Part shown: in pieces, positions 26,625 through 43,863 of the stretch | Layout: every line of letters starts with the position of its first letter | How positions within the stretch are numbered: the stretch's first letter is position 1 | From: Sphingobacteriaceae bacterium | GTDB taxonomy: Bacteria; Bacteroidota; Bacteroidia; B-17B0; Aurantibacillaceae | Length of the DNA stretch: 64,000 nucleotides | Reading direction: 5' to 3' | NCBI GenBank assembly: GCA_002319075.1 | Contig: NVQB01000001.1 | Coordinates: forward strand, 1,984,001 to 2,048,000 | Translations under genes and position numbers: made by a program | Notes under the pieces: model-generated | Database searches by the model: none | Told to the model about the DNA's origin: nothing | What the model saw: only the letters and a program-made list of their open reading frames with translations

Positions 26625-26687
26625 ACCACAGAGAAAAAGAGATTTTTGAGATTCGCTGCGGGGTTTTTGCCACAGATTGCGCAGATT
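26625..26687. repeat. Seven consecutive 9-mers in phase (intergenic 9-bp repeat)
   Basis: From 26625 the sequence reads in 9-base steps: accacagag, aaaaagaga, tttttgaga, ttcgctgcg, gggtttttg, ccacagatt, gcgcagatt. The related units keep the same phase over 63 bases. It lies in the 193-bp gap between the divergent purM and mqnA genes. Confidence 0.6.
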
Positions 26688-40610: not shown

Positions 40611-40769
40611 AGTGGGTTAAATTTACTAATTATAATGCGGTAATTTAAAGGCCGGGTCTATTAAAAAAGTCTAAATAAACAACGCAATACTATACGAAAC
40701 CTGAGGGTTTTCAGATCTTGCAGGCTAATAAATCCTTTGCTATCGCCACTTGAAACTTGCAAAAAGAAG

Positions 40770-40777
40770 TATCTTTA
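40770..40777 (+). promoter_or_regulatory. Near-consensus -7 box of deoC (tatcttta)
   Basis: This is a TAnnTTTG variant ending 5 bases before the ATG at 40783, with a TTG 17 bases upstream of it (40750-40752). The transcript would be leaderless or nearly so. Confidence 0.4.
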
Positions 40778-40782
40778 ATTTA

Positions 40783-41679
40783 ATGAATCCTGATTTTAAA
40801 CAAACAATTGCTATTGATCAACTTGGCGTAGAAGAGCGGGTAGCACGCTTAAACACGCGCAGCTTAAAAAAAGAATCAAAAACGGCTGCTTTAAAGCTGG
40901 CCCTGAACATGATAGATCTTACTACCCTGGAAGGAAAAGATACCGAAGGAAAAATAAAGCAACTGTGTTACAAAGCCTTGCATCTTGCCGACGATCTTAC
41001 GGATGTTCCAACGGTTGCCGCAATTTGTGTTTATCCCAATCATGTTAAGACCGCCAAAACAGCATTATCGGGAAGTTCTGTAAAAGTGGCGTCTGTCGCA
41101 ACAGCTTTTCCCAGTGGCAACTCTAGCCTGGAAGTTAAACTCTCAGATACCAAATTTGCTGTTGAAGAAGGAGCAGATGAGATAGACATGGTGATAAGCC
41201 GCGGGCAATTTTTAAAAGGGAATTACAGTTTTGTTTTTGACGAAATTGCTGCGATCAAAGAAACCTGCGGAAAAGCCAGATTAAAAGTCATTTTAGAAAC
41301 AGGAGAACTTTCTACGTTAGAGAACGTCAGGAAAGCAAGCGACATCGCGATGTACGCCGGTGCCGACTTTATCAAAACTTCTACCGGGAAAATTCAACCG
41401 GCAGCAACCATGCCGGTAACCTTGATCATGCTGGAAGCGATAAAAGACTTTCATTACAAAACCAATAAAGTAATAGGAATGAAACCAGCCGGCGGAATTT
41501 CCACCGCAAAAAACGCACTCCAGTACCTGGTGATGGTAAATGAAACCCTGGGTGAAGCCTGGCTGACGAATGAGTATTTTAGATTTGGGGCCAGTGGTTT
41601 GGCCAATGATATTCTACTTCAGTTAGGGAAGGAGAAATATGGGGCTTATTATAGTAAGGATTATTTGAGTGTGGACTAG
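40783..41679 (+). CDS. deoC: Deoxyribose-phosphate aldolase
   Basis: The 298-residue TIM-barrel aldolase has the Schiff-base lysine K198 in DFIKTSTGK, the second lysine K234 in GMKPAGGI and the acidic D136 in EIDMV. It splits 2-deoxyribose-5-phosphate into glyceraldehyde-3-phosphate and acetaldehyde during deoxynucleoside breakdown. The frame opens at 40750, but the ATG at 40783 fits the family and the -7 box at 40770. An aldehyde dehydrogenase gene lies downstream after a broken GxxExxY gene, and it could oxidise the acetaldehyde formed. Confidence 0.92.
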   Translation: MNPDFKQTIAIDQLGVEERVARLNTRSLKKESKTAALKLALNMIDLTTLEGKDTEGKIKQLCYKALHLADDLTDVPTVAAICVYPNHVKTAKTALSGSSVKVASVATAFPSGNSSLEVKLSDTKFAVEEGADEIDMVISRGQFLKGNYSFVFDEIAAIKETCGKARLKVILETGELSTLENVRKASDIAMYAGADFIKTSTGKIQPAATMPVTLIMLEAIKDFHYKTNKVIGMKPAGGISTAKNALQYLVMVNETLGEAWLTNEYFRFGASGLANDILLQLGKEKYGAYYSKDYLSVD

Positions 41680-41693
41680 CTAAAATGACTCTG

Positions 41694-41720
41694 ACGCAGA
41701 TTTCGCTGATTACGCAGATA
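41694..41720 (+). repeat. 9-bp-phased repeat, forward orientation (acgcagatt type)
   Basis: Three adjacent 9-mers, acgcagatt / tcgctgatt / acgcagata, sit between deoC and the GxxExxY pseudogene. The same unit appears in reverse at 42241-42267 on the other side of the pseudogene. Confidence 0.7.
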
Positions 41721-41780
41721 ACTTCTAAACTAATACGCTAAAAATTTAACGCACATCTAACCAATAAATTAGACTAAAAG

Positions 41781-42181
41781 ATGGATTACACTATCGAAGA
41801 ATTTGAGGAAAATATACTGAGTGATTATACAACAGATTATGGCTCTGCTGAAATAAATGACTTGACTTACAGGATCATTGGCGCAGCCATGGAAGTTCAC
41901 AATGTTTTAGGCAAAGGATTCTCTGAAGCTCTTTATCAAGATTGTTTGTCTCTGGAACTAAGAAATAGAAAGATTAGCTTTGAGAAAGAAAAAAAATTCG
42001 AGATTGTATATAAAGGAGTGTAGATTTCCCATTACTATTTTGGTGATTTTATAGTTGAAAATAAAGTTGTACTGGAAATAAAAGCACATAGCTCTTTAAT
42101 GGACGATCATGCAAGATAGGATTACTTGTAAACTTTGGAGAAAATATTTTAAAATATAAACGAATCATTTTAAGTAAATAA
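41781..42181 (+). pseudogene. Broken GxxExxY-family PD-(D/E)XK nuclease-like gene
   Basis: The first 80 residues (from ATG 41781) show the GxxExxY motif in GKGFSEALYQD. A TAG at 42021-42023 interrupts the frame after VYKGV. The same frame continues with HYYFGDFIVENKVVLEIKAH, which holds the D...ExK catalytic signature of PD-(D/E)XK folds. After DDHA the homologous end (KIGLLVNFGENILKYKR) continues in another frame to the TAA at 42179-42181; the segment that normally links the two (about nine residues) is missing. One nonsense change and one small deletion therefore inactivate it. The family is thought to be nuclease-like, with unknown role. It sits between deoC and an aldehyde dehydrogenase gene. 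Confidence 0.85.
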
Positions 42182-42200
42182 AATTTCAGCTTTACAGGTC

Positions 42201-42267
42201 AATCTGCGAAATTTAATGCCGAAGGCATCTAGTTTTTTGAGACCAGCGTAATCTGTGCAATCTGCGT
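42201..42267 (-). repeat. 9-bp-phased repeats, reverse orientation
   Basis: On the minus strand, bases 42267-42241 read acgcagatt / gcacagatt / acgctggtc, and 42209-42201 read tcgcagatt. Between them lies a small hairpin atgcc-gaa-ggcat (42216-42228). These units are inverted relative to the tract at 41694-41720, so the pseudogene is framed by opposite copies. Confidence 0.65.
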
Positions 42268-42272
42268 AAAAT

Positions 42273-43757
42273 ATGGCAACAAAACTTTCCAAAACGAAAT
42301 CTGTGGCAAAAAAATCATCCGCGTTTACCGCACCATACGCCGCCGCGGTAGAATCCCAAGACCACATAAACATCGCCACCCGTTACGATCTCTTCATCAA
42401 CGGTAAATTCGTGAAACCAACCGGCAAAAATTATTTCGCCACATACAACCCTGCCACTGGCGAAAAGCTCTCTGAGATTGCCCGGGCGAATGAGACAGAT
42501 GTTGATCTTGCCGTATCAGCTGCACGCACTGCATATGAAAAAGTATGGAAAAAAATGCCATCAAAAGAACGTGCTAAATATATTTTTAGAATTGCACGGG
42601 TTATACAAGAGCGGGCCCGCGAACTTTCTGTTATTGAAACACTTGATGGCGGTAAACCGATCCGTGAAAGTCGCGACTTTGATATTCCCTCTGCAGCGAA
42701 TCATTTTTTCTATTATGCTGGCTGGGCCGATAAATTAAATTATGCCTTTCCTAACCGCATACCAAAATCATTAGGAGTGGTCGCTCAAATCATTCCATGG
42801 AATTTTCCTTTGTTAATGGCAGCCTGGAAAATAGCGCCAGCATTGGCTACCGGAAACACTGTTGTCTTAAAGCCAGCCGAAAACACTTCATTAACAGCCC
42901 TTAAACTGGCTGAGATCATTCGCGACTGCGGTCTCCCACCGGGTGTTGTAAACATTATTACCGGCTTAGGAGACACTGGTTCGGCCATGGTAAACCATCC
43001 TGATGTAAACAAAATCGCCTTCACCGGGAGCACAGAAGTTGGAAAATCAATTCAGAAATCTGTAGCCGGTACCAGTAAAAAACTGACTTTAGAATTAGGT
43101 GGAAAAGCAGCGAACATTATTTTCGATGATGCCCCCATAAATCAGGCTGTTGAAGGAATTATAAATGGCATCTTTTTTAACCAGGGCCATGTATGCTGTG
43201 CGGGCTCGCGCTTATTTGTGCAGGAAAACATTGCTGAAGAAGTCATTCGGAAATTAAAAGAAAGGATGAAAACTTTAATCGTGGGCGATCCCATGGACAA
43301 GAACACCGACATTGGCGCTATAAACAACAAAGAACAATTAGATAAAATAAACCACTACCTAAAAACTGGAAAAGAAGAAGGACTTGAAATTTATCAACCA
43401 GATTGCATTCTTCCAGCCAACGGAAATTTTTGCAAACCCACTTTATTTTTAAATGTTGCTCAGAGCAACCGTGTTTCGCAGGAAGAAATTTTTGGACCGG
43501 TTTTAGCGATACAAACTTTCAGAACTATTGAAGAAGTAATTGAAAAAGCAAACGGTATACCTTACGGACTAAGCGCAGGAGTTTGGACAGACAAAGGCTC
43601 CAAAGCATTTAACCTCAGTACAAAATTACGGGCTGGTGTTGTATGGGCAAACACCTATAATAAATTTGATCCAACTTCCCCTTTTGGGGGCTACAAAGAA
43701 AGCGGCTTTGGACGCGAAGGCGGATTGCACGGATTAATGGCTTATCTGACTTTTTAA
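42273..43757 (+). CDS. Aldehyde dehydrogenase (NAD(P)-dependent ALDH superfamily)
   Basis: The 494-residue ALDH has PWNFPLLMAAWKIAPALATGN, the glutamate in LELGGK, the catalytic cysteine region NQGHVCCAGSR and EEIFGPV near the C terminus. An N-terminal extension of about 35 residues, rich in lysine and serine, precedes the core domain. It oxidises an aldehyde to the acid, and the nearby deoC gene suggests acetaldehyde. Many relatives occur as deoC-ALDH-ALDH clusters; here only one ALDH is adjacent. Substrate is inference. Confidence 0.87.
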   Translation: MATKLSKTKSVAKKSSAFTAPYAAAVESQDHINIATRYDLFINGKFVKPTGKNYFATYNPATGEKLSEIARANETDVDLAVSAARTAYEKVWKKMPSKERAKYIFRIARVIQERARELSVIETLDGGKPIRESRDFDIPSAANHFFYYAGWADKLNYAFPNRIPKSLGVVAQIIPWNFPLLMAAWKIAPALATGNTVVLKPAENTSLTALKLAEIIRDCGLPPGVVNIITGLGDTGSAMVNHPDVNKIAFTGSTEVGKSIQKSVAGTSKKLTLELGGKAANIIFDDAPINQAVEGIINGIFFNQGHVCCAGSRLFVQENIAEEVIRKLKERMKTLIVGDPMDKNTDIGAINNKEQLDKINHYLKTGKEEGLEIYQPDCILPANGNFCKPTLFLNVAQSNRVSQEEIFGPVLAIQTFRTIEEVIEKANGIPYGLSAGVWTDKGSKAFNLSTKLRAGVVWANTYNKFDPTSPFGGYKESGFGREGGLHGLMAYLTF

Positions 43758-43762
43758 GTTTG

Positions 43763-43853
43763 ACAGAGATTGTGCTGATCATACAGATGTGTTAATACAG
43801 CTTCAGTATCCTTGATTTTTTAACTCGCACAGATCAGCGAAATTCTTGTAACC
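43763..43853. repeat. Paired 9-bp-phased repeats in opposite orientation
   Basis: Bases 43763-43789 read acagagatt / gtgctgatc / atacagatg. Bases 43827-43853 read gcacagatc / agcgaaatt / cttgtaacc, which on the minus strand contain tttcgctga and tctgtgcga. The two tracts face each other in the 106-bp gap between the ALDH gene and the convergent sensor gene. Confidence 0.55.
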
Positions 43854-43863
43854 TGCACCCGGA

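Follow-up and report, generated by a model that had tools for sequence, protein, structure and literature searches.

A decayed GxxExxY gene between inverted arrays of phased repeats in a Sphingobacteriaceae bacterium, and related arrays in other bacteria

The interval between deoC and the aldehyde dehydrogenase gene

The window (the whole stretch of 64,000 nucleotides that was analysed, from contig NVQB01000001.1 of a Sphingobacteriaceae bacterium) carries the remains of a small gene with a repeat tract on either side. The features of the interval and its two neighbours are the following.

40750..41679, + strand: left neighbour deoC (deoxyribose-phosphate aldolase), co-directional
41694..41720, + strand: left (gene-upstream) repeat tract of three 9-bp units, the middle one CGC-type; it starts at base 15 past the deoC stop codon
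41781..42023, + strand: 5' part of the GxxExxY (PDDEXK_3) gene, 80 codons and then TAG
42024..42181, + strand: decayed 3' part of the gene; the DFIVENKVVLEIKA region is still in frame, the C-terminal LLVNFGE region is in another frame (42116-42181 including the stop)
42201..42209, - strand: extra unit TCGCAGATT, inside the right tract
42241..42267, - strand: right (gene-downstream) repeat tract of three units, the middle one CAC-type, ending five bases before the next ORF
42273..43757, + strand: right neighbour, aldehyde dehydrogenase, co-directional

The units read ACGCAGATT TCGCTGATT ACGCAGATA in the left tract (+ strand, 41694-41720) and ACGCAGATT GCACAGATT ACGCTGGTC in the right tract (- strand, 42241-42267). 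In a repeat search, 41694-41715 and 42246-42267 came out as the arms of an inverted repeat of 22 nt with 86% complementarity. The unit scorer gave 38.8 for the left and 35.0 for the right tract, against a chance level of 0.1 tracts of at least 30 per window (mean of ten random windows from a second-order Markov model of the window). A chance origin of the tracts was ruled out by these random windows, by the count of a reversed pattern and by control ORFs. The extra unit at 42201..42209 is possibly the remnant of a doubled tract, of the kind seen in G367 and G371. A search of 41400-42600 against Rfam gave no match up to E 1.

The ORF at 41781-42023 matches the first half of the profiles TIGR04256 (63.4 bits, cut-off 35) and PF13366, PDDEXK_3 (62.1 bits, cut-off 22), and the window gene is thus itself a member of this family above the curated cut-offs. 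A premature TAG stands at 42021, same-frame homology runs on to about 42116, and the 3' end of the gene (IGLLVNFGENILKYKRIILSK) is shifted to another frame (42116-42178). With this TAG and the frame shift near 42116, a single intact frame with D...ExK is absent from the window copy. When read through, the copy gave 97.3 bits in the whole-genome search, with one TAG inside the match. Intact relatives are present at the same site (L241-L244). In the window genome the gene has been lost to mutation and the arrays are still recognisable.

The preliminary description of this DNA had named a decayed GxxExxY gene framed by inverted repeats, which is borne out by the profile matches, the TAG, the frame shift and the 22-nt inverted repeat. 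It had also placed tracts of acgcagatt-type 9-mers at the two ends; their positions and 9-bp phase hold, with exactly three units, and acgcagatt is only one variant of a much wider unit class. The 574-bp stretch 41694-42267 is best taken, with somewhat better than even confidence in the reading as a whole, as a decayed copy of a small gene-bearing element in which a GxxExxY gene lies between two inward-facing unit arrays.

Other repeats were also seen in the window. A weaker inward pair of AGATT-type tracts (scores 26.7 and 23.8) occupies 43763-43858, 6 bp past the aldehyde dehydrogenase ORF, and is probably a gene-less element in decay. At 26670-26687 there is a tract of two units, CCACAGATT GCGCAGATT, with no clear partner, and tandem repeats of 22 and 60 bp lie at 1253-1418.

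Arrays at GxxExxY genes of other genomes

The narrow, acgcagatt-type scorer found a tract at none of the 30 best-scoring GxxExxY loci of Bacteroidota, because other protein clades carry other unit variants. This apparent refutation was reversed by lag and inverted-flank tests, which revealed those variants. On either side of a GxxExxY gene there is usually an array of degenerate units, C[AG]CN[AG]A[GT], mostly 8-11 bp apart, and the two arrays are inverted and face inward. Once the unit was generalised in this way the proposed linkage of tracts to GxxExxY genes over other genes was recovered. Among 59 Bacteroidota loci the flanks match as an inverted repeat (score of at least 16) in 40, against 1 of 344 control positions; the matched flanks are arrays of CACAGAG, CACGAAG, CGCAAAG, CACTAAG, CACTAATT and other units. 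A second set, the named loci, was chosen by protein: from 577 relatives of one GxxExxY subgroup the best 80 were kept, and two of these were skipped for short flanks. The inverted flanks scored at least 16 in 62 of these 78 loci, against 10 of the 402 other ORFs compared within them, although at least five of the 62 matches are not visibly built of units (L127, L146, L159, L189, L199) and L163 and L180 are doubtful. Both comparisons support the repeat/nuclease unit suggested in the preliminary description. The phyla read for the 80 named loci are Bacteroidota, Planctomycetota, Chloroflexota, Pseudomonadota, Acidobacteriota, Verrucomicrobiota, Cyanobacteriota, Nitrospinota, Omnitrophota, Sumerlaeota and others. 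Direct-orientation flank matches are also commoner than in controls (25/78 of the named loci, from the best 80 of 577, vs 17/402), and the layout is therefore not always a simple pair.

Unit density was measured in 139 loci, a set in which L041 and L125 are identical in protein and tract (counted twice) and L059 and L063 nearly so. Within 100 bp upstream of the gene the unit C[AG]CN[AG]A[GT] reaches 19-21 per kb on the + (gene) strand, and within 50 bp downstream it reaches 36 per kb on the opposite strand (-), against a background of about 2 per kb farther away. Clusters of at least two strict units were found on both sides of the gene in 83 of the loci, on one side in 39 and on neither in 17; spacings of the strict unit are mainly 8 to 11 bp. 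Rfam searches of 14 other loci at gathering scores returned only a tRNA. The longest ORF of L198 (4854-5357) runs through the left array (HHRDTETQRE), so that annotated GxxExxY starts may be too long. In L226, L224 and L223 clusters of several tract pairs adjoin the GxxExxY gene, as if pairs multiply locally.

GxxExxY genes were found in 152 of 296 sampled genomes of the phylum, a survey from which the best-scoring loci alone were taken. They are present in 42 of the 44 genomes with at least four AGATT-type tracts and in 110 of the 252 others, an association that ignores phylogeny and uses tract counts made by hand. Tracts are present in two genomes in which GxxExxY was not matched (G355, G357). 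G158, likewise without a GxxExxY match, has tracts in regular tandem arrays, with a spacing of 131 bp on C9 and of about 187 bp on C5. With one GxxExxY query protein, no match was obtained in 50,697 phage records, and matches lay on 8 of 72,556 plasmid records.

The type of array follows the protein clade. This was examined on a tree of 83 proteins, built from few columns and weakly supported at many forks. There the final base of the unit (G or T) requires 3 changes against 9.6 when shuffled, unit base 2 requires 15 against 22.9, unit base 5 requires 14 against 23.1 and the spacing class 20 against 33.8; in each case none of 300 shuffles was as low. The result holds for the 34 Bacteroidota rows of this tree alone (at most 1 of 300 shuffles as low). 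In the same 83 loci the left arm scores 22.1 against its own right arm, 16.8 against the right arms of the three nearest proteins and 12.1 against random loci, and the own-arm match is higher than the nearest-protein match in 65. At the genome level, at least four AGATT tracts were counted in 13 of 19 genomes with a window-clade gene (a match of 100 bits or more) and in 20 of 62 without one (p 0.007, a weak test).

Gene-less pairs, and occupied and empty sites

GxxExxY was matched four times in the window's own genome. Three of these genes are intact, and an AGATT-type tract was found within 1.5 kb of none of the three; one of them (L001) sits between CACTAAG arrays. A 25-base tract pattern gave 50 matches in this genome and 0 when reversed. 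Neighbouring tracts within 700 bp form 15 pairs against 0.28 expected (48 merged hits, from 49/50), of which 8 are inward, 6 '++', 1 '--' and 0 outward. In the folds of five pairs, 106-179 bp long, the two arms are base-paired, and six pairs compared over their inner parts showed no clear likeness (local scores 8 to 17). Same-strand tract arrays recur about every 166 bp in L031 (3117652-3118235 of this genome) and about every 125 bp in L015 (5454023-5454299).

Inward pairs of 56-103 bp were present at 18 of 20 tract sites read in G336 and G372, sites chosen among the stronger pattern matches. The foot is GC, by eye, in all 36 arms of these 18 solo pairs, and C[AG]CAGATT follows it in 35; in gene-bearing loci the foot is mostly T-rich, e.g. 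TTAAC or TTCAC. The middle unit is CGC in one arm and CAC in the other in 18/18 pairs of G336 and G372 and in 14/16 of G353, some of the latter being the same loci. The asymmetry was seen in 7/13 pairs of G363 and 5/11 of six other genomes (read by eye, with one count per palindrome and without two shifted duplicates), which rules it out as a general rule for left and right ends. Among gene-bearing copies of the window clade the CGC arm is upstream in L004, L241, L242 and L320, and CGC stands on both sides in L243. Compensating changes that would keep the arms paired found no support, as the two outer units of the 18 solo pairs are less alike between own arms (12.83 of 16) than between reshuffled ones (13.68).

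Many solo pairs are common to close relatives. The site of the pair in L297 is empty in G349 and that of L304 is empty in G372, and the L295 site holds a different unit type in two related genomes (L348, L349). Many AGATT-type solo pairs occur in G336 and G353, which have no window-clade gene (best matches 69.5 and 82 bits), and G336 holds another GxxExxY gene, L315, with a CGCTGAT array. Pairs can therefore outlive the gene or be served by another GxxExxY protein, e.g. L315.

Occupied and empty versions of the same site, an alignment proposed in the preliminary description, were obtained at two places. At the first, the map site, with neighbours read as methionine aminopeptidase and methyltransferase, joined flanks were matched in 148 of 150 genomes of the genus of G170. 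Sites were hand-picked in 37 of the 150 genomes, one of them without an anchor; the 36 read comprise 13 empty, 17 occupied, 5 remnants and 1 with a 2-kb insert, proportions that are not frequencies. The anchors are 40-68 bp apart in empty and about 550-600 bp apart in occupied sites. Those occupied sites that were placed on a tree belong to two far-apart protein lineages with different array types. In L253 and L275 the same long palindrome (CCTGCAAGGTTTTCAAAACC...) lies beside the remnant right array and looks like another repeat family using the map site. The intact GxxExxY copies at the map site are under purifying selection: dN/dS is about 0.038 for type A and 0.049 for type B, over 15 pairs each, at dS above 1. 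Of type A, 7 of the 10 copies were used, one of which has a stop and was not paired, and of type B 6 of 6. A stop inside the GxxExxY match was found in 8 of 139 loci.

At the second place, the deoC site, 30 of the 76 genomes with deoC were read. Three loci are occupied (the window, G372 and G322), three have a tract only (one of them, L092, stops at a contig end), 20 are empty, and in 4 the neighbour is out of reach. Further occupied cases are G367, G343 and G308. The copies of the window, G372, G367 and G343 form one group (support 97/96), and those of G322 and G308 fall outside it. From this grouping the window copy looks like an old insertion of its genus, since broken. The sharing of sites among relatives suggests that most full elements and many solo pairs have been inherited in place.

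No fixed target-site duplication stands out at the junctions, and none is shared by most of the 82 loci compared, whose insertions are old. The best 3- and 4-mer matches, in 14 and 9 of the 82 loci, coincide with the TTAA(C) foot, and counts at least as high arose in 0.01 and 0.03 of reshuffled sets; 6- and 7-mers match in 3 and 2 (0.025 and 0.04 of reshuffled sets as high).

Protein fold, related systems and interpretation

In the aligned GxxExxY proteins the PD-(D/E)XK motif keeps its D, E and K. In the predicted model of a Tangfeifania homologue (mean pLDDT 96.3) the closest solved fold is SSO0001 (4ic1, Z 10.0 over 100 residues), which we take to be a Cas4, followed by 3ijm (Z 8.2); Hjc (1gef, Z 7.5) and restriction enzymes are lower matches within the chance range of the tool. 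The best Foldseek match had E 5e-3, the PDB gave no match by sequence up to E 1, and none of the solved structures or fold matches gives a function. GxxExxY proteins are predicted to share the fold of Cas4-type and Hjc PD-(D/E)XK nucleases but are shorter. An alignment of 59 sequences has only one invariant Cys, and therefore no Cas4-like four-cysteine cluster. In the openly accessible papers searched, GxxExxY is named in passing and neither a role nor a linked repeat for the family was found. Repeats of this kind were likewise not linked to GxxExxY there, including in the available parts of PMC3733652 and PMC12306157.

The closest parallel is REP/RAYT, in which, according to PMC8266576 and PMC3116915, an enzyme gene lies between repeats that are also scattered as inverted pairs. 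RAYTs are HUH enzymes, and a GTAG (or CGTC) tag marks the REPs. The present elements share with the REPtrons and REPINs of those accounts one small enzyme gene flanked by repeats, further copies of these repeats dispersed as hairpin-forming inward pairs, and repeat classes that go with particular enzymes. As in a REPtron, the repeats that flank the gene are found again as inverted pairs at other places in the genome. The enzyme here is a PD-(D/E)XK protein and not an HUH/Y1 transposase: the gene is PDDEXK_3 by profile, and the predicted fold of the homologue is nearest to PD-(D/E)XK nucleases. Each arm, too, is an array of 3-4 spaced 7-bp units, and the GTAG/CGTC foot tag is absent, the foot being GC in solo-pair arms and T-rich in gene-bearing loci. 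Since the enzyme is not HUH and this foot is lacking, the elements are not REPtrons. MITEs are gene-less, inverted-ended derivatives that occur beside a gene-bearing parent insertion sequence. The elements resemble them, and insertion sequences, in having terminal inverted repeats and gene-less inverted-ended forms beside a gene-bearing form, but no fixed target-site duplication was found, no known transposase is present, and the ends are phased unit arrays.

Arrays accompany GxxExxY genes generally, vary with the protein and occur as scattered gene-less inward pairs, and elements are present or absent at matching sites. The layout of gene and repeats across many bacterial groups suggests a widespread repeat-and-nuclease system that resembles REP/RAYT and is not built from it. 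The most probable explanation, held with somewhat better than even confidence, is a repeat/nuclease partnership that would work like the REP/RAYT "REPtrons" with an unrelated PD-(D/E)XK nuclease. The GxxExxY nuclease, probably an oligomer with one subunit per unit, would recognise its own arrays at both ends and would cut at the array ends. Such cutting may mobilise or maintain its own copy and, in trans, the gene-less pairs, and host repair would complete the insertion or loss. The process is likened to the presumed action of RAYT transposases on REPINs, with use of host transcription and host repair.

The arrays may instead be operators or RNA signals, through which GxxExxY would regulate itself and its neighbours by binding, or which would process or stop transcripts, the pairs having spread by recombination or selection and not by a nuclease. 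The position of the elements agrees with this. Neighbours are co-directional upstream in 34/41 and downstream in 34/40 of the named loci with both arrays (from the best 80 of 577), against 82/129 and 69/129 for gaps between other ORFs of the same loci, and the left array begins, with its outer unit, a median of 18 bp past the stop of the upstream neighbour (34 loci). The folding of the five short own-genome pairs and the purifying selection on the map-site gene point the same way. Empty sites that lack both arrays, dispersed pairs without a gene and the conserved nuclease active-site motif argue against it, and this explanation is considered unlikely. A homing-like process, slightly less likely still, would have the nuclease cut certain intergenic sites and host repair copy the element in, a few preferred sites being refilled by different GxxExxY lineages. 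It would account for the two far-apart lineages and the remnants at the map site, for the G322 and G308 copies outside the clade of the window copy, for the absence of a clear target duplication and for the other unit types at the L295 site. Solo pairs, however, lie at dozens of unrelated sites, and for these a homing-like process fails because copying by repair needs homologous flanks.

A last and very improbable explanation makes the arrays the termini of an ordinary insertion element that has GxxExxY as cargo and owes its movement to some other enzyme. Fixed inverted ends, gene-less derivatives and hosts that have tracts but no matching GxxExxY gene speak for such an element; yet the 550-600 bp or so between the anchors of occupied map sites are largely filled by the GxxExxY gene and its arrays, and, across loci from many phyla, the type of array goes with the clade of the GxxExxY protein.

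The partnership of arrays and nuclease, taken in its broadest form, is given an even chance: GxxExxY and its phased arrays would be a second, independent kind of bacterial repeat-and-nuclease partnership, spread over many phyla. Its PD-(D/E)XK nuclease would recognise, at both ends, an array code specific to its clade and would drive a population of hairpins like that of REPINs, with no HUH or DDE transposase involved. To our knowledge, the PD-(D/E)XK class of enzymes is not known to move DNA on its own, and REPIN-like populations would, if this is true, have arisen with an enzyme class of another kind. If the arrays are the substrate, a large orphan nuclease family would gain a testable function, and many unexplained intergenic repeats (of the CACAGAG, CACGAAG, CGCAAAG and CGCAGATT types) would get an owner. 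The paired arrays offer ready-made binding substrates, together with a prediction of which protein should bind which array.
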